Positions 1,419 through 16,000 of a DNA stretch of 35,234 nt are shown here, piece after piece. The translations under genes and the position numbers were made by a program. Source of the stretch: an uncultured bacterium. GTDB taxonomy: Bacteria; Verrucomicrobiota; Kiritimatiellia; RFP12; UBA3636. Every line of letters starts with the position of its first letter. Position 1 is the stretch's first letter. The stretch covers positions 1 to 35,234 of the forward strand of contig CADBEF010000019.1 of the NCBI GenBank assembly GCA_902793555.1, given 5' to 3'. The notes below the pieces were generated by a model. It was not told where the DNA came from, did not search any database, and saw nothing but the letters and a program-made list of their open reading frames with translations.

Positions 1419-3231
<1,813 letters not shown>

Positions 3232-3274: not shown

Positions 3275-3369
3275 ATTGGAACTGGCAACACTGGAGCTGG
3301 CAACACTGGATATTGGCAACACTCGACAATGTTGCCAATGTGCGAATGTTGCCAATGGCCAGTTCCAAT
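3275..3369 (+). repeat. Intergenic palindromic array of GGCAACACT / TGTTGCC units
   Basis: The left half has three copies of GGCAACACT; the right half has two TGTTGCCAAT copies in inverse orientation. The outermost 11 bp are perfectly inverted (ATTGGAACTGG and CCAGTTCCAAT). It has the same architecture as the heptad palindromes in the coding genes but a different unit sequence. Confidence 0.7.
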
Positions 3370-3421
3370 TGCCAATGACCTTCCGCTGGCACGAGGAGAT
3401 CTTGTTCTCGCCCCCCGAAAA

Positions 3422-3467: not shown

Positions 3468-3739
3468 TATTTCTGTCGAACGGCGCGGCGCGCAGCGCGC
3501 AGCGCGATTACCGCTTGCGCGCGCGAGGGCGGGTGTGGTAGGATAACTACCGCTACGGAGCCATTGTCATGACGCCGCCCCCCAAGACAGGAGCCCCATC
3601 GCTTCCGCGTCCGAAAAACGGTCGTGCGTCTTGGCTTACATCCAGCGACTCTCGCGGGGGGCAACGCCCTACCCCACGCACTCCTTTACGCCTCGTAGCA
3701 GGCGCGTCGGCCGTATCGTTCGCCTCGCGCGAAGCGGAA
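3468..3739. other. Intergenic stretch without a convincing gene
   Basis: This holds low-complexity GCGC runs (about 3480-3530) and a small hairpin (GGTAG-GATAA-CTACC, 3537-3551). A weak open frame starting at ATG 3569 has a GGAG 8 bases upstream, but most of its length is produced by the nested inverted repeat that follows. No family was recognised. Confidence 0.5.
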
Positions 3740-3925
3740 CGCAATCGCTTCGCGACGCAATCCCCGCGGAAACGCTTCCCGCATCGGACGCCGCTCCGCG
3801 GCTATGCGGAGAAGCGTTTCCGCCGATACGGACCCACCCCGGGCGAAAGCCGGTTCCGCATAGCGGCGAAGCCGCGTGCGATGCGGACCGGCTTTCGCCC
3901 CAAATGGCGTCGCGAAGCGATTGCG
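3740..3925. repeat. Nested inverted-repeat (cloverleaf-like) element
   Basis: Outer perfect 19-bp arms (3740-3758 and 3907-3925; core CAATCGCTTCGCGACG) enclose two hairpins. Hairpin A is 3766-3778 with 3811-3823 (13 bp). Hairpin B is 3841-3854 with 3887-3900 (14 bp). Both continue inward through the same CCGCAT/ATGCGG pairs, and B contains a GCGGC-GAA-GCCGC mini-hairpin (3863-3875). The layout resembles a structured, non-autonomous mobile or regulatory element. No transposase gene is present. Confidence 0.8.
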
Positions 3926-3935
3926 GTTTCTGGAC

Positions 3936-4013
3936 GTGAGACGCGAGACCCGAGACGCGGCCCCTTGACCCTCCCGACCATCTAGACCATACGACCATAC
4001 GACCATCCCGACC
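3936..4013 (+). repeat. Heptad and octad arrays abutting the start of the giant surface gene
   Basis: Three GAGACNC heptads (about 3938-3958) are followed by ACCATACG-type octads (about 3977-4013) that end on the ATG of the next gene. No Shine-Dalgarno sequence is present, so the repeat occupies the normal ribosome-binding position, as it does before pyrG. Confidence 0.65.
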
Positions 4014-7000
4014 ATGAAAAAGACCCTCCTCGCACTCCTCGCGCTGCTCTGCACGCCGTTCGCGCTCCGCGCGGACACGCTCTACGTGACGCCCACGGGC
4101 GCCGGAAACAAGGACGGCTCCTCCTGGGCCAACGCCTTCGCCGGCATCCAGGCCGCCGTCGACGCCGCCGACGCCGCGTATGCCGCCGACGGCACGCTCC
4201 ACGACATCCTCGTGGGCGACGGCACCTACACGCGCGTCGTCGTCTCTCGCAACTTCGCGCTGCAGGTGCGCTCCGTGAACGGCGCGGCCTCGACCGTCAT
4301 CGACGGCAACAACACGAACGGGTGCATCCGATGCTTCGCCAACGGTTTCGTGACGGCGCCCACCTTCACCGGCTTCACGCTCCGCAACGGCAACGTGGAC
4401 ATCCTCACGGGCAACGACAACGTGCGCTACGGCGGCGGCGCGGGCGGCGGCACGCTCTACGACTGCATCGTCGAGGACTGCATCGCCAACTGGGGCGGCG
4501 GCACCTATAGCGCCAACACCTGGCGCTGCATCATCCGGCGCTGCACCGCGACGGGCGGCGGCGGTGCCTGCGCCGAGGGGGGGACACACCGCAACACGCT
4601 CATGTGCCAGTCGACCGGACAATCCTTCCTCACCTACGGCGTGACGCTCTACAACTGCACGGTGGTGGACAACGTCGCGGAACGAAGTGGCACCAACGTC
4701 CACGTCAATCGCCGCTACAACAGCATCGTCTGGGGCAACCTCGCCGCCGGACAGCCCGTCGAGCAGAACGACGCCGTGGACCCGAAGCTCGTGGGCGACG
4801 GCGACTACCGCCTGCGCGTCGGCTCGCCGGCGATCGACGCAGGCGACGCCGCCTACGCGACCGAGCAGTATGTCGGCACGACCGATCTCGCCGGCAACGC
4901 CCGCGTCCAGGGCAACGCCATCGACCGCGGCTGCTACGAGGCCGAGAACGGCCAGGGCGTCGAGGGCTGCCTCGTGACCGCCGTCGCGGGCGGCAACGGC
5001 GTCGTCTCGCCGCGAAGCATCTTCACGAACGCGAATGCGTCGGTCACGATCACCGCCGACACCTCCGTCTACAACCGCCCCGTCGTCGGCTGGTACACGA
5101 ACGGCGTCCTCGCGGCGGCGTCGGGCAACACGTTCACGCTCACGACCGGCGAGGAGGACGTCGCCATCGTCGTCGAGTTCGCCGATTACCAGTGGTTCGT
5201 GGACGGCGCGACCGGCAGCGACGCCAACGACGGCCGCACGGCCGCCACCGCGTTCAAGACCATCGCGAAGGCGGTCTCCTCCGCCATAAACGACGAGACG
5301 GTCAACGTGGCCCCCAGCACCTACGCCCCCATCGACACGACGGGCAAGCGCGTGAACATCGTCGGCACGGCCGGCGCGGCCGCGACGATCATCGACGGCG
5401 GCGACGCGCGGCGCTGCGCGACGCTCTCCGACGGCACCACGCTCACGGGCTTCACGCTCCAGCACGGCAAGAGCCTCGCCGCCGACGACCAGGACGGCGG
5501 CGGCGGCGCGAAAGGCGGCACGCTCGTCGCCTGCGTCCTCCGGGAGAACATCGCGGTCTGCGGCGGCGGCGCCTACGGGGCGACGCTGATCCGCTGCACC
5601 GTCACGGACAACAACGCGGGCAACGGCGGCGGCGTCTACGACTGCGACGCCTACAACTGCCTCGTCGCCTACAACGCCGCCGCGCGCGGCGGCGGCGCCT
5701 GCTACGGCGAACTGCGCGGCTGCACGGTCGTGTACAACCGCGGCCTCGTCTCCGGCGGCACCGACTACGCCCGCGTCTTCAACAGCATCCTCCGCTACAA
5801 CCGCACGTCCAACGGCCGCCCGAACTACAACCTCTGGGGCTACGACGGCAACTGCATCGACGAAGAGAACGCCAACCGCGAGGACGGCGAGTGGGCGGAC
5901 GGCTACACCATCGTCCGAGATCCGCTCTTCGTCGATCCCGAGAACGGCGACTTCCGCCTCCGCGCCGGTTCGCCCTGCATCAATTACGGCGACGAGGAGA
6001 TCATGTACGTTGCGGACGGCCTCGACCTGGCGGGCAACCCGCGCATCGTCGACGACGATCCCGACCTCGGCTGCTACGAGAGCGAGGTGGAAGGTTTCGT
6101 CGTCTCCGTTCGCGTGGACGGCCACGGCTCCGTCTCCGACCGCACCCTCGTCGTCGCCGAGGGCGGCACCGCCACGATCACGGCCACGACGGACGGCCGC
6201 GCCTTCCAGAAATGGCTCGTTGACGGCGCGGACGCCGGCACGGGCGCGACGCTCACGCTCACGGACATCGACGAGGACCACGTGGTGACGGCCTGCTTCC
6301 AGCGCAACACGACGACCGTCTCCGGCGGCGGCGCGGCGCTCCAGAACGCCATCAATGCGGCGAAGGACGGCGACACGCTCGTCGTCTCGCCCGGCACCTA
6401 CTCGGCCATCATCGCCACGAACGCCGTCCTCGACATCGTGAGCCGCGACGGCGCCGAGACGACGATCATTCAGGGCCAGACCGGCCTGCTCTCCGGCACG
6501 CGCGCGGCCACCTTCTCCAAGACGCAGACGCGCCCGACCTGCACGCTCTCCGGCTTCACGCTCACGGGCGGCTTCTGCGGCGACCCGACCTACGGCGGCG
6601 GCGGCGTGTTCGGCGGCATCGTCTCGAACTGCGTCATCCGCGGCAACGGCGCCCTCCTCGGCGGCGGCGGCGCGGCCTACAGCATGCTCACGCACTGCGT
6701 CGTCTCCAACAACACGGCCTACGTCGTCGGCGCCGGCGCGGCGTGCTCGGCCCTCGACAACTGCCTCGTCGTGGACAACCGCGTCCCGTTCAGCTCGACC
6801 GAGTGGGCCGCGAAGCTCCAGGACACGCTCGGCGTCTCGATCGTCCTTCCGGCCGAATGCAAGGGCGGCGCGGGCCTCGCCTTCTCCTCGGCCGACCACT
6901 GCACGGTCACGGCCAACCAGTCGACCGACGCCGCTTCCGGCGGCGGCACCTGGCTTGTCCTTGACAACACCATCGTCGCCGGCAACACGGCCCCGGAGGA

Positions 7001-10000
7001 CGCGAACCAGAACCTCTTCCGTTTCGACACCCCCGTCGACCCGCTCTACACCTGCACGACCTACGACGACTTCTGGGGCGAGATCGATCCCCCCGGCTTC
7101 GTGAACGCCGCCACCGACGACACGTTCGTCAATGCCGCCGCCGGCGACTACCGCCTCAAGGCGACCTCCGCCTGCGTCGACGGCTGCGACGGCACGTTCG
7201 ACCTCGAAAACCCGGACATGGAGCGCATCGCCCTCTTGGAAAACGGCACCGACCTCGTGGGCTCGCCGCGCTGGCTCGCGCTCGCCCCCGACATCGGCTG
7301 CTACGAGACGACGCCCGCCAAGCCCGGCGCGGTGCCGGACGTCGCGGCGACGCGCAGCGCCTACCGCGAGGACGTCCTCGTCACCTGGACCGGCGCGAAG
7401 CACGGCGCGTGGTACACGATCCACCGCGGCCCGTGGAACAACGGCGCGGGCACGTTCGCCCAGGCGGAGCAGATCGGCATCGTGACGAACGTCTTCACGT
7501 GGTACGTCGACGACACCGCGGAGGCGAGCGTCGACTACCGCTACTGGGTGGTGGCGCACTCGGGCGCCGGCTCCGGGCCGTACGGCGCCGGCGACCACGG
7601 CTACTGGGTCGCGCCGCTCGTCATCACGACGGAATCGCTGCCCGACGGCACGGTGCGCGAGCCCTGGACCGCGCAGCTGGCGGCGACCGGCGGCATCGGG
7701 ACCTACACGTGGGAGGTCACCCAACCGGACTGGCTCTCCTTCTCCGGCGCGACCCTCTCCGGCGTGCCGCGCGTTCAGGGCGACGTCTGGGTGGTGGTGA
7801 CCGTCACGGACCAACGAGGGACCGAGGCCCAAAAGGCCTTCCAGATCTCGATCGCGAAGAACCCCAACCCGGTCAGCGTCACCATCTCCAACCTCGCCGA
7901 GCTGCGCCAGTTCATGGAGGACGTCCACGAATACTACTTCGAGGGCGACACGGTCACGCTCGCGGCCGACATCGACTGCGAGGGCGGGCGCTTCAACACC
8001 GGCGCGTCGGGGAGCAGCGCCTACTCCTGCTTCAAGGGCACGTTCGACGGCCAGGGGCACGTGATCTCCAACTTCGTCAACACGGCCCTCCCCCCCGGCA
8101 CGGGCAATACCACCACCTTCGGCGTCGCGATGTTCGACATCGCGCGCGACGGCGCGGTCATCAAGGACCTCACGCTCCGGGGCCACTTCGGCCACGAAGC
8201 GTCCCACGAGTACGCCGCCGCGTTCGCCGCCTACGCGATCGGCCACACGAACGGGACGCTCGGCCTCACGCTCGAGAACTGCCACTTCATCGGCTCCGTC
8301 ACCAACTACAAGAACTCCGCCGCCTTCGTCGGCGCGGCGCTCCACGGCAGCGGCGCGCCCGACGGCCGCGTCCTCTACATGACGAACTGCACGGCGCGCG
8401 GATCGATCGTCTCGACCTACACCTACACCGTCGGCGGCCTCGTCGCGTCCGGCGAGGGCGTCGAGGCGGCGGACTGCTCGTTCGAGGGTTCCGTGGTCAG
8501 CCGCTGGACGCTCGGCGGCCTGATCGGGCAGGCCTACGACAGCTCCTTCAAGAACTGCTCGTTCGAGGGGACGATGGGACCGGGGCCTGGGAGCGGCACC
8601 AGCAACAGCGGCTGCGGCGGCCTCGTCGGCTACTCCTCGAACGCGGTCTTCCGCGCCTGCACGTCCAGCGCGGACATCACCTGGAGCGCGTACCAGGCAA
8701 GCGTCTTCACGGCCGTCGGCGGCGCGGCCGGCGTGACGCTCGGCAACAGCGCGTTCTTCGACTGCTCGGCGACGAACTCGGTGACGGTGCCCTACGGCCG
8801 CGTCGGCGGATTCGTCGGCTGGACGGCCGGCGCGGAGACCTTCTCGAACTGCACGGCGAAACTGGCCCTTGAACGCACCAACCCCAACAACAGTCTTGTC
8901 TCCGGCGGCTTCGCGGCGAGCGTCGCCTCCGACGGCGCGCTCTTCGTGGATTGCACGGCCACCGCCCGGGGGAACGACCTCAAGGCCGGCTTCTACCACG
9001 ACCAGACCCCGAAGCAGGGCGTTCCGGTCGGGAGCAACACGTTCCGCCGCTGCCACGTGGTGGATCCTATCGCCAAGACGGCCGGGTTCTGCTCGTACGC
9101 GTGGAACTGCACGTTCGAGGGCTGCACGGTGCGCGGCGGAACGGGCGCGGCGGGCTTCGTCCAGAGCGCCGGCCGGCGGCCGGACGACTCGAACTCCAGC
9201 ACCTACCCCTACGCGCAGACCTCGACCTTCACCGACTGCGCCGTCGTCGGCTCGCAGGCGAACTACGGCTTCGCCGAATACTCCAACTTCGACAACAAGA
9301 ACGGCAGCACCAACGTCTTCCGCCGCTGCCGCGCCTCGTGCGTGTTCGTATCCTCCTCGGACTACGAAGCCGGCTTCGCCGCCATCCTCTACAAAGGCTC
9401 GATCGCGGAGGACTGCCTCGGGCACGGCATCTCGACGGCCAGTTCGACCACCTACGGCTTCGCCTCCTCCATCGGCGTCGGCGCGGCCGTCCGCCGCTGC
9501 GTCGGCGCGGTGCTGCCGCGCGCGCAGGGGAACCGCGGCGCGGGCTTCGCTTCGTCGATCTCCTACAATGCGCCCGTCGAGGACTGCTACTCCGTCTTCG
9601 CCCCGCCGGTCCCGGACACGAGCGCGAGGATGGGCGGCTTCGTCTCCTCCGCGTCCGTCGGCTACGACTCCACCGGCCCCGCCGTCACGCGCTGCTTCGC
9701 GCTCGCCGCGCCGGCCGACGGCAGCGACTCGGGGAACTCCGGATCCTTCTGCGGCTACGTCTACAACGCGGACTACGCGAACTTCGTCGATTGCTGGCGT
9801 CCCGCCGAATCGAACGTGCGCGACGTCGGCAACGGCAACAATGGCGGCGACGACGCGGGCGTCGGCGCGCTCACCAAGGCGCAGTTCGCGAGCGCGACCG
9901 CCGCGACGATGCCGAACTACGACTTCCAGCACGTCTGGCACGCGCCGCGCGGCGTCGCCTCCAGCCCCTACCTCGACGCCTCCGTGGACGCGAACACCAA

Positions 10001-13000
10001 CTTCTGGTTCCTCGCGACAGTCATTGGCGGCGAGGGCCGCATCCTCGTGAACGGCGCCGAGCCCGCCGAGGCGTATCCGGCGGGCACGGTCCTCACGGTC
10101 GAGGCGGTCCCGAACACCCCCGGACTGCCGTTCGCCGGCTGGGTGGGCGAGGGCTTCGCCGACCCGATGTCGCCGAGGACGACCTACACCGTGAAGAACG
10201 TCTCCGCCATCGGCGCGTCGTTCTGCACGCCGATCTACACGGTGGCCGACTGGACGAACGTCCTCAGCTGCGCGAGCGTGTCCGCGCCGTCGGGCAACTA
10301 CGCGCTGATGAACGACCTCGACTTCACGGGGCTCTTCGAATCGAACGGCTGGCAGAACGTGCGGGTCGGCTCCTTCACGGGCAAGTTCTTCGGGCAGGGC
10401 CACACCATCAGCAACCTCTGCACGACGCGGGGCGACTTCTCCTCGACCGTCGCGCTCTTCCGGAAAGTTTCGTCTGGCGCGGAGATCCGCGACCTGACGG
10501 TCTATTCGTCCAACGTCACGAACGACCAGAACACCCTCAGCATGGCTGGTCTGGTGAATGAAGTCGAGAGCGGCGTGACGATCAGCAACTGCCACGCCGT
10601 GGTGGACTGGCAGGGCGTCTATCCCGCGAACTACTACAGCGGCGCCCTGGCATCGTGCAAATACTACGGCCTCGCCCAGACCGTGAGCGGCGTGGGCATC
10701 CGCATCGTGGACTGCACGGTGGAAGGGAAGCTGGCGGGCGGCACGCGGGCGTGCGGGTTCGTCGGCAGCGCGTCGATGACCGGCGGCGAAATCGCGCGGT
10801 GCGCGGTGTTCGCGGATGTTTCGACGCTCACGAACCGCACCGACGGCGCGGCCGCGGGCTTCGCGGGGGAGATTACCCTTTCCGGCGGCGCGGTCGTGCG
10901 CGAGTGCTTCTCGGCGGGGAGCGTGGACGCCGCCGCCGACGCGGCGGGGTTCGCCTGCCGGATCGACCTGCGGGACGACCAGTCCCAGGTGCACGACTGC
11001 TACTCGACGGCGGAGGTCATCGGCGGCGAAAACCAGAATCCGGCGGGCTTCGTGTGCAGGATTTCCGACATCAACGACGAGGGCGGGGTGCTGCCGGTCG
11101 CGAACTGCTGGTTCGGCGGCACGGCGCGGGTCCGGGGCCGGGCGAGCCAGTATTACCAGCCCTACGGCTTCGCGCATTACCTGGACGGCGACGCGTCGCT
11201 CGAAAACTGCGCGTGGGTGGCGGTGGACGGCGTGAAGGAGGCGGGGACGGCGGGCGCGACGGCGCTGGGGCAGGCGGCGAGCCGGAAGGCGGCGTCGTGG
11301 CCGGGCTACGATTTCGCGGGGACGTGGAGCCTGTCGGAGGACGGGACGACGCCGTATTTCGCGTGGTCGCTGGCGGAGGGGACGGACTTCCGCCTCTTCG
11401 CGGTGCAGGAGCCCGGCACCACGATCACGCACCCCGCCACGGCGCTCCCCGGCTCGAACGCCGCCGTCTCCGCCGATCCCGGCGAAACGGGCGCCTTCTT
11501 CTGTAGTTGGGCGGGCGGCGCGCCTTACACCAACGCCGCCGTCAACCCGTCGGCCTTCCTCGCGGACAACCACCGCACCGTCCGCTGCGTCTGGGGCAAG
11601 GCCATCACCACGCGCGCCGAACTCGAGGCCGTCGCGAACGACCCCGCCGGCGTCTACGCCCTCGGCTGCGACATCGATCTCGGCGGCGAGCCCTGGACGC
11701 CGCTCTGCCAGGACGAATACACGCCGTTCACCGGCACGCTCTACGGCAACGGCCACACGATCTCCAATCTGACCGTGGAGACGGAGACCGCCCGCGCCGG
11801 CCTCTTCGGAGGACTCGGCGCCGGCGCGACGATCGCCGACCTCCACCTCGCGAACCCCGTCGTCCGCGGCGCCAACTGCGTCGGCACCCTCGCGGGATAC
11901 GTGGACGGCGCGACCATCAGCGGCTGCACCGTCTCGGGCGCGGACGTCACGGCGACGTCCGAGCGGGCGGGATGCTTCGTCGGGCAGATCGTGGGCGACA
12001 CCTCGGTTTCGCGCTGCTCCGTCACCGGAACCATCGCCGGCGAAGCCCGCTACGTCGGCGGGTTCGTCGGCTCCGCGGAGGGCTCCGCCGCAATCGAAAA
12101 GTGCTACGCGCTCTGTTCGGTGACGGGAACGGGCGGCGAGGGCTTCGGCGGCTTCGTCGGCTACGCCTCCGGCGATTCGGTCTCCTTCTCCGAGTGCTTC
12201 GCGTGCGGCGCCGTCGCGGCGTCCGGCCGCAACAGCGTCGGCGGTTTCGCCGGATACGTCTACGACAGCCCCTCCGTTTCCGACTGCTACGCGCTCGCGG
12301 ACGTGACGGGCGCCAGCTACGTCGGCGGCTTCGCCGGGCAGCTCAACTACTGCAATACGGCGTTCGATCGCTGCTACGCGGCGGGCTCGACCGTCGGTTC
12401 CTCCGAATCCGGTGGCTTCGCGGGCCGCCAATACCGCGGCAGCCCGTCCTTCACGGACTGCTTCCGCATCGCCGATGGCCTGGCAGACGTCGGCGCCGCC
12501 GACCTCGTCGGCATCGACGCGCTTTCCGCCGCCGCGATGCACAGCCGCTCCAGCTTCGCCGCCTTCCACGCGACCGGCAAGTGGGCGCAGACCGACGGCC
12601 TCACGCAGCCCTACTTCGCGTGGTCGCTCGTGGACGGCAAGTTCCTCCTCTCCGGCGACGCCGCCACCGTAAACGGCCTCGGTGCCTACGCGCCCGGCGC
12701 ACAGGCCCCGATCTCCGCGAACGCGCAGGGCCGCTTCTTCATCGGCTGGACCGGCGGCGCCACCTACGCCGACGCCTCCGCGTCCTCCACGACCGTCCTC
12801 CTCGACAACTTCCGCGTCGTGGACTACCTCGCGGGCGCCTCGATCTCCACGCGCGCCGAGCTCGCCGCCATCGCGAACGACCCCGCCGGCACCTACGGCC
12901 TCGCCGCCGACATCGACCTCGGCGGCGCGGACTGGACGCCGATTGCCACGTTCACCGGCAAGCTCTACGGTCGCGGCCACACGATCTCCAACCTCACCGT

Positions 13001-16000
13001 GACCGGCTCCTCCAACTACGCGGGCCTCTTCGCCTACGTCTCCGGCGAGGTCTCCGGCCTCACGCTCGTGAACCCCGTCGTTTCGGGCGGCAACCACACC
13101 GGCGCCTTCGCCGGCTGCGTGAACGCCGGCGCAACCGTGAACCGCTGCGCCGTCATCGGCGGCCGCGTCACGGCCTCCGACAACTATTCCGGCGTCTTCT
13201 CGGGAAGCATCGAGGGCGCCGCCAGCGTCGGCGAGTGCTTCGCCGTCGGCACGATCGCGTCCACCGCCAGCTACGTCGGCGGCTTCTCGGGCTACGTCGG
13301 CCAGAGCAACACCTCCGTCTCCGACTGCTACGCGGTCTCGGACGCCACGGGCAGCCAAAGGGTCGGTTCCTTCACCGGCCACGCGGAGACCTCCAGCTGC
13401 TCCATCCGGCGCTGCTACGCGGCCGGCACGGCGTCCGGCTCGTCGTATGCGGGCGGCTTCGCGGGCTACGTCTCCTCCTCGCCGGTCATCGCGGACTGCT
13501 TCGCGCAGACCCCCTCCGCCGCGATGACGGGCGTCACGGTGCTCGACGCGGCCGGAATGCGCGCGGCGAGCAACTTCACCGCGTTCCGGGCGGCCGGCTG
13601 CTGGTCGCAGATCGACGGCAAGACGCAGCCCTACTTCGCGTGGGGCCTCGTGGACGGCGGCTTCCTCCTCTCCGGCGACACCGCCACCATCACCGGCCTC
13701 GGCGCCTGCGCGCCCGGCGCGCAGGCCCCGATCTCCGTCGACCCGACGGGCGGCATCTTCCTCGGCTGGACGGGCGGCGCCACCTACGCGGATTCGTCCT
13801 CGCCCTCCACGACGGTCCTCGTCGACAACTACCGCACCGTCTCGGCCAAGTTCGGCTCGCTCATCACGACCCGCGCCGAGCTGGAGGCCGTCGCGAACGA
13901 CCTCGCCGGCTCCTACGCCCTCGGCGCGGACATCGACCTCTCCGGCTCGCCCTGGACGCCGCTCGGCGCCACCTCCTCGACGCCGTTCACCGGCTCGCTC
14001 TACGGGCACGGCCACAAGATCACCGGCCTCACGTTCAGCAACACATCCTCCGGCGACTCCAACGGCAGCCACGCGGGCCTCTTCCGCTACGCCAGCGGCG
14101 CGACGTTCGACGGCATCCACCTCGAAGGCGTCTCGATCCGAGGCTACCAGTACACCGGCGCGCTCGCGGGCGAGGTGCAGGGCGCGACCACGGTCCGCAA
14201 CTGCTCCGCGCAGGGCGTCGTCACGAACTCCAACGGTTACGCCGGCCTCCTCGTCGGCCAGGTTTATGGCTCCGGCACGTCCTTCGAGAACTGCGCCGCC
14301 ACCGGCACGGTGTACTCCTCCTCGACCTCCTCGTCGGACTGCGGTGGCCTCGTCGGCCGCGTGTACTACAGCCCGGCCTCCTTCACGGACTGCGACGTGA
14401 ACGTCGAAGTCTCCGGTGCGGGCGGCGGCGACAAGGGCGGCTTCATCGGCGCCGTCAGGGACGGCAGCGCGGGCGCGACCTTCACGCGCTGCACCGCCTC
14501 GGGCGCCGTCGCCTCGTCGAACTCCGACTCCGTCGGCGGCTTCCTCGGCTACGCGAACAAGGCCGTCTCCTGCACGGACTGCTCCGCGACGGGCGCCGTG
14601 ATCGGCAAGAACGCCACCGGTGGATTCGCTGGAAACATCGACAGCGTCGCCCATTCCTTCACGCGCTGCGTCGCGGCGGGCGACGCGAGCGGTACGCAGA
14701 ACGTCGGCGGCTTCGTCGGCAGCACCTCCGGCGGCAACACGCAGTTCGTCGAGTGCGAGGCGCAGGGCAAGGCCACGGGCACCGGCGGAAGCAGCAACTA
14801 CAGCGTCGGCGGCTTCGCCGGGCAGACCACGGGCGGCGGCACGCGCTTCGCGCGCTGCTCCGCGATGGGCGACGCCTCGGCCCCGTCGTCCTACTGCGTC
14901 GGCGGCTTCGTCGGCTACCTGAGCAGTTCCAACGACGTCTGGCGCTGCCGTGCGTTCGGCTCGGCGGAGGGCTCCTACCAGGTCGGCGGCTTCGCCGGCC
15001 GCCTCTACGGCGGCAACGCGGCAATCCGCGAGTGCTTCGCCATCGGCGACGCCACCGCCTCGCGCACCGGCAACGAATCGCTCGCCGGCGGCTTCGTCGG
15101 CCTGATCGACAACTCCGTGCGCCTTTCGGACAGCTACGCCATCGGCGTCGCCTCCGGCGAACGCTGCATCGGCGGCTTCGCGGGAAAGTTCTCCAACTCG
15201 TCGCTCTCCGTCCAGCGCTGCTACGCGGCGGGCGGCATCGAATGCACGGGCTATTACGGCGGCGCCTTCGTGGGCTACGACTACCAGCACGGCACCGTTG
15301 CGGACTGCGCGGCTGTCCTGGCGGGCGGCATTCATGCCGTCGGCACCTCCACGGCCGGCTCCACAGCCACGCTCGCCGCCATTTCCGAGCTCACGGCCGC
15401 CGAGTTCCGCCTCCGCGCCAATTTCCAGGCCTTCCACGAGACCGGCCTCTGGTCGCAGGTGAACGGCTCAACCCAGCCCTACCTCGCGTGGGGCCTCGTG
15501 GACGGCAAGATGTCTCTCGCGGGCAAGTCCGTCGGCGCGCTCGGCGGCTCGATTTCCGGCCTCGGCCTCTACGAGCCCGGCGCGACGGCGACGATCCGCG
15601 CCGTCGCGACCGGCAACGCCGTCTTCCTCGGCTGGACCGGCAACGCGCCCTACGCCGACCCCGACGCCGCGCAGACCACGCTCGTCCTCGACAACTTCCG
15701 CTGCGTCGTCGCATCCTTCGGCACCTCCATCACTACCGCCGCGGACCTCGCCGGCATCGCGGACAAGCTCGACGGCTCCTACGCGCTCGGCGCGGACATC
15801 GACCTTGCCGGCACGACGTGGACGCCGATCGGCGCCTCCACGCCGTTCACCGGCACGCTGAAGGGCAACGGCCACGTCATCACGGGCCTCTCCTTCTCCG
15901 ACGCCTCGAACAGCGACACGGGCGGCAACTACGCCGGCCTCTTCCGTCACGTCCAGGACGCCACGATCGAGGACATCCACCTCGAAGGCGTGTCGCTCTC

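Follow-up and report, generated by a model that had tools for sequence, protein, structure and literature searches.

What is the palindromic element that lies upstream of a giant open reading frame in an uncultured rumen bacterium of the Kiritimatiellia, and how did it get there? The preliminary description of the window, by which we mean the whole stretch of 35,234 nucleotides analysed here, had drawn the element as a cloverleaf of two hairpins enclosed by outer arms, and had suggested a folded element, perhaps a non-autonomous mobile unit or a structured leader of the giant gene. The element comprises 186 bp (window 3740–3925), with 19-bp inverted ends, a 17-bp central spacer and no intact gene inside.

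Fold and covariation of the element

The perfect outer arms, the 13- and 14-bp stems and the CCGCAT/ATGCGG segment common to both large hairpins all proved exact (Table 1). On its own, the left repeat forms a mini-hairpin, TCGC-TTC-GCGA, in which positions 3745–3748 pair with 3752–3755. Beyond its basal stem, hairpin B contains an unpaired A at 3810, a middle stem (3779–3784/3804–3809), a 5-nt internal loop (3785–3789) facing T3803, and an upper stem (3790–3794/3798–3802). Hairpin A differs from hairpin B in its basal stem; the tip and the bulge are identical and lie on the minus strand. Folding of the element as DNA yielded a minimum free energy of -83.5 kcal/mol, compared with a mean of -46.9 kcal/mol for shuffled sequences (z = -10.9; 0 of 200 shuffles equally low). 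As RNA, the two strands gave z = -12.1 and -10.8.

Table 1. Features of the window element and its neighbouring reading frame (window coordinates)
Feature	Position	Strand	Remarks
Left terminal repeat, CGCAATCGCTTCGCGACGC	3740–3758	+	perfect 19-bp inverted repeat; pairing in 18 copies
Large hairpin B	3766–3823	+	exact 13-bp basal stem, 3766–3778/3811–3823
Variable spacer, hairpin B to hairpin A	3824–3840		position of the GxxExxY gene in L255 and L257
Large hairpin A	3841–3900	-	mirror of B; exact 14-bp basal stem, 3841–3854/3887–3900
Right terminal repeat	3907–3925	-	inverse of 3740–3758; also a mini-hairpin
Neighbouring open reading frame, 5249 aa	4014–19763	+	begins 88 bp past the element; outside the element

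Each outer arm pairs locally as a mini-hairpin in 144 of 144 Watson-Crick cells of an 18-copy alignment, whereas the same columns pair across the element in only 108 of 144, which rules out the outer arms as the closure of a cloverleaf. The alignment supports a layout of four separate hairpins in the order small-big-big-small. The mini-hairpin occurs in the subtypes TCGC-TTC-GCGA, TTGC-TTC-GCAA and CGGC-TTC-GCCG; the 19-bp arms of the window copy are perfect because both of its ends belong to one subtype.

The stems also covary. When 39 half-elements were aligned, standard pairs accounted for 97.6% of the cells and 15 of the 28 pairs varied on both sides; covariation scored 0.416, versus 0.127 in shuffles. 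Because the A and B arms represent two subtypes, we counted them apart; both-sided Watson-Crick changes were seen in eight pairs within A and in six within B. The large hairpin is built from a basal, a middle and a GC-rich upper stem; a single unpaired purine lies on the 3' side between the first two, and an asymmetric internal loop separates the middle stem from the upper one. This plan was found again in families whose basal stems are quite unlike, and the single unpaired purine and the tip are common to hairpins from families I, II, IV and V.

The window contains further repeats. A GC-rich, perfect 20-bp inverted repeat with a loop of 1 nt is located at 3182–3222, and TGGCAACAC words are clustered in direct and inverted orientation at 3275–3380. 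Tandem GACCATACGACCAT words at 3967–4015 stand immediately ahead of the giant open reading frame start, in an array that is longer in the G009 orthologue of the window site (L080, G009:C21). An open frame of 3922 aa that runs antisense to the giant frame (3669–15437, minus strand) is probably a by-product of the high GC content.

Distribution and insertion sites of the copies

The search for copies yielded four full ones in the element's own genome (3.38 Mb in 325 contigs) and full copies in eight of 11 same-genus genomes and in G041, a member of another family of the order; these counts come from a search with a loose first pass and may miss diverged copies. Searching 58 further relatives gave matches in same-genus genomes, in G041 and, short and marginal, in G030. 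Matching public contigs are titled uncultured Kiritimatiellae or Verrucomicrobia, some of them from goat gut or rumen samples. Neither plasmid and phage records (blastn) nor viral contigs (exact pattern) contained a match to the element, which argues against a plasmid or phage element. Similarly, a known structured RNA was discarded as a candidate, as no family in Rfam 15 matched the element above its gathering score. A SAM-I-IV riboswitch above the gathering score is located near one copy of the cassette (family I; L013 1231–1346, minus strand).

About 13 unrelated sites account for the full copies, of which four groups have common flanks and are therefore orthologous: the window site and its counterpart in G009, a site in an ABC transporter fusion gene in four genomes, L008 with L083, and L007 with L084. 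Outer sequences vary between family I sites. Copies are mostly intergenic, after stop codons or between unrelated genes, and sometimes lie in frame within genes; the gene context is not constant, and we found no promoter or terminator pattern at them. A specific leader of the giant gene is not supported for a unit so placed, and an intrinsic terminator was rejected for want of the pattern. Close species differ in the presence or absence of family I; at orthologous sites, G002, G008 and G009 have remnants. No target duplication was seen at the cassette borders in 18 copies. Nor did we find, for the cassette of family I, a clean empty site accompanied by a target duplication; orthologous places hold unrelated filler, another palindrome or remnants. 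The L083 site in G000, for example, is occupied by a different palindrome (L221) with GGAACGCAAAGG ends.

Two of the sites are within genes. A 183-bp cassette (L011) lies in frame inside a purF homologue in G003; one of 196 bp is in frame in the linker of an ABC_tran-FecCD fusion in G000, G006 and G002 (L002, L009 and L017). The cassette is GC-rich and has few stops, so that an open frame by itself says little; more telling is that the host gene continues on either side of the cassette. In L222 (G008:C103), the ABC_tran-FecCD linker consists of a tandem repeat of the peptide EMTGRPSA where other genomes carry the cassette.

Some copies sit inside other miniature elements (MITEs). One such MITE, which has GTAATCGGTCAGCCGT ends, encloses the family I copy L018; its 8-bp duplication reads CCGGCCTC, and G001 has the empty counterpart of this site; L012 is another copy of the same MITE with its own 8-bp duplication, GCCGCGCG. 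The ends of this MITE (GTAA) are IS66-like. In family II (G001, G003 and G007), the family I tip is found within a 232-bp MITE with GGTGTGACC ends, for which duplications of about 10 bp are legible in four copies. Other MITEs thus enclose two copies of family I, along with those family II copies whose two ends are intact; duplications of 8 or 10 bp accompany several of them, and part of the dispersal is therefore due to other enzymes. At the remaining family I sites, no outer inverted repeats or duplications were found next to the cassette.

Relatives that carry a GxxExxY gene

Longer relatives of the element were identified in G002. Locus L255 contains an intact GxxExxY gene of 144 aa (TIGR04256, E = 4.9e-33; PF13366, E = 6.2e-32) with a mini-hairpin and a large hairpin on either side. 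In L257, what stands between two hairpins with the family I tip is a GxxExxY gene fragment; an internal deletion has joined the gene's N- and C-terminal portions. To avoid choosing ends by eye, we built a covariance model, R1, from gene-less family I halves only. Over 45 GxxExxY loci, its top four matches came from the two loci just described, at both of their ends: 45.4 and 30.8 bits for L255, 39.6 and 39.5 bits for L257. Both pairs face inward around the gene. Fifth came L253 (30.4 bits), where the matching hairpin belongs to family II and lies about 1 kb from a GxxExxY gene, not at the gene's end. Over 30 four-helix-bundle and 12 RAYT loci, R1 reached a maximum of 16.9 bits. An R1 search of the genus revealed gene-less double-hairpin units with L255-type ends on two other contigs of G002 (L310 and L311). 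L257 is as expected of an intermediate between the gene-bearing and the gene-less unit; the reverse order, in which a gene-less unit gained the gene, may also apply. Ends matching R1 at both sides were found for only two GxxExxY genes, both in G002. A GxxExxY gene was found neither in G009, which is 73% complete and holds many copies, nor in G007.

GxxExxY genes are widespread: PF13366 matches occur in 115 of 162 genomes of the order, and such genes are also present on plasmids of several phyla. No GxxExxY gene was confirmed on viral contigs. The profile retains the PD-(D/E)XK residues E27, D67, E77-x-K79 and Q91/Y95. Solved structures gave weak profile matches only, among them the junction-cutting T7 endonuclease I with E values of 0.31 and 0.54, which are not significant. 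In the 200-bp flanks of 43 GxxExxY loci, inverted repeats had a median score of 43, compared with 17 in windows taken at random from those loci, and 32 of these loci, which are not fully independent, were above the 99th percentile. Most of these ends consist of short words repeated two to three times (CACGGAATA CACGGAATA CACGGAA), without large hairpins. Among plasmid genes of other phyla, clear inverted repeats were seen in two of eight. Two plasmid loci stand out by their surroundings: in L367 (Sphingomonas parapaucimobilis plasmid), the GxxExxY gene has fabD on one side and fabG, 2 bp away, on the other, and in L362 (Fusobacteria bacterium ZRK30 plasmid) it has AGATTTAATCCGTGTACCTAT on both sides, a long repeat that is direct and not inverted.

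Four-helix-bundle (PF05635) genes (L330–L359) are likewise surrounded by inverted clusters of short tandem words, with 17 of 24 above the 99th percentile. Since these genes show a similar excess of inverted repeats, the flanks are no proof that GxxExxY is the driver. The four-helix-bundle genes themselves were rejected as carriers of window-type ends: although they lie within inverted repeats, no model match was obtained.

Origin and possible mobilization of the element

The element belongs to a dispersed, structurally conserved repeat family, and a single genome contains a gene-bearing and gene-less pair as well as an intermediate with a deleted gene. With moderate confidence, we interpret the window unit as a gene-less, MITE-like derivative of a hairpin-ended mobile element whose longer members carry GxxExxY. 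Its many copies and strong covariation bear out the folded, non-autonomous mobile unit that the preliminary description had considered, but we found no transposase to go with it; the gene linked to the ends is the nuclease-like GxxExxY (PD-(D/E)XK). As in MITEs (reviewed in PMC10969869), the units are short, gene-less and dispersed, with inverted ends, stable stem-loops and a longer gene-bearing relative in a related genome. They differ from MITEs in that the gene is GxxExxY and no known transposase, that the ends are paired bulged hairpins, and that the target duplications looked for are missing at most copies, being confined to the enclosing MITEs of L012, L018 and family II. We use the term MITE-like because no target duplication is present at the cassette borders.

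Each element end is composed of a small hairpin and a large bulged hairpin, the two ends being in mirror image. Such ends may extrude as hairpins or as a cruciform in single-stranded or supercoiled DNA. The GxxExxY protein, encoded between the ends of the long relatives and keeping the PD-(D/E)XK residues of its family (TIGR04256, PF13366), would recognise the bulged tip and cut there, and gene-less copies would thereby be moved in trans. The weak match to T7 endonuclease I would fit the proposed cutting mechanism. In the literature searched, which says almost nothing on the family, we found no mobile-element role for GxxExxY, and the gene could be cargo rather than driver. A broader proposal is that an undescribed class of transposable elements is mobilised by GxxExxY proteins, acting as PD-(D/E)XK structure-specific nucleases that cut hairpin or cruciform ends, with the gene-less palindromes as their MITEs; we put it forward only tentatively and consider it doubtful.

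The double hairpin might instead not be mobile by itself but travel inside DDE-type MITEs and by recombination, with GxxExxY as another passenger. The IS66-like and family II MITEs described above, with their duplications, speak for such transport, but it is an unlikely explanation, as the other family I sites lack outer inverted repeats and duplications adjoining the cassette and their outer sequences vary from site to site. It is still less probable that the structure is kept for the host, as an mRNA leader, a processing site or a topological site. The strong stem covariation, the conserved tip and bulge, and the retention of orthologous copies (in G009 at the window site, in four genomes at the ABC fusion) would agree with a host function; the inconstant gene context, the copies inside open reading frames, the presence/absence differences between close species with their remnants, and the lack of a terminator pattern argue against it.

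A further candidate is an element of the REP/BIME type moved by the RAYT (Y1 tyrosine) transposases of the genus. RAYT-type genes are present in 10 of 11 genomes, and like BIMEs the units are mostly intergenic, irregular-stemmed, inverted pairs of bulged hairpins without duplication. However, REPs are 20–40 bp long and carry a GTAG or CGTC tag (PMC3733652), whereas the large hairpin here measures about 60 nt and shows no such tag at its foot in the alignment. Window-type ends are absent at the 12 RAYT loci, which led us to reject RAYT as the driver and makes this origin highly improbable. Several RAYT-type genes (L025, L028, L029 and L031) instead have a GGGGTTTGTCCCC-type flank in common, as for the TIR-flanked tyrosine transposases in PMC3733652.

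By description, the family also resembles the Rickettsia palindromic elements (RPE), which are about 150 bp long and lie in frame in genes (PMC10969869): it is palindromic, 180–200 bp long and found in frame inside protein genes. It differs from them in belonging to another phylum, in being mostly intergenic and in having a known gene-bearing relative. The in-frame copies represent an RPE-like route of protein change outside Rickettsia. For the GxxExxY family, the gene-bearing and gene-less pair with common hairpin ends offers the first concrete substrate and a role that can be tested.
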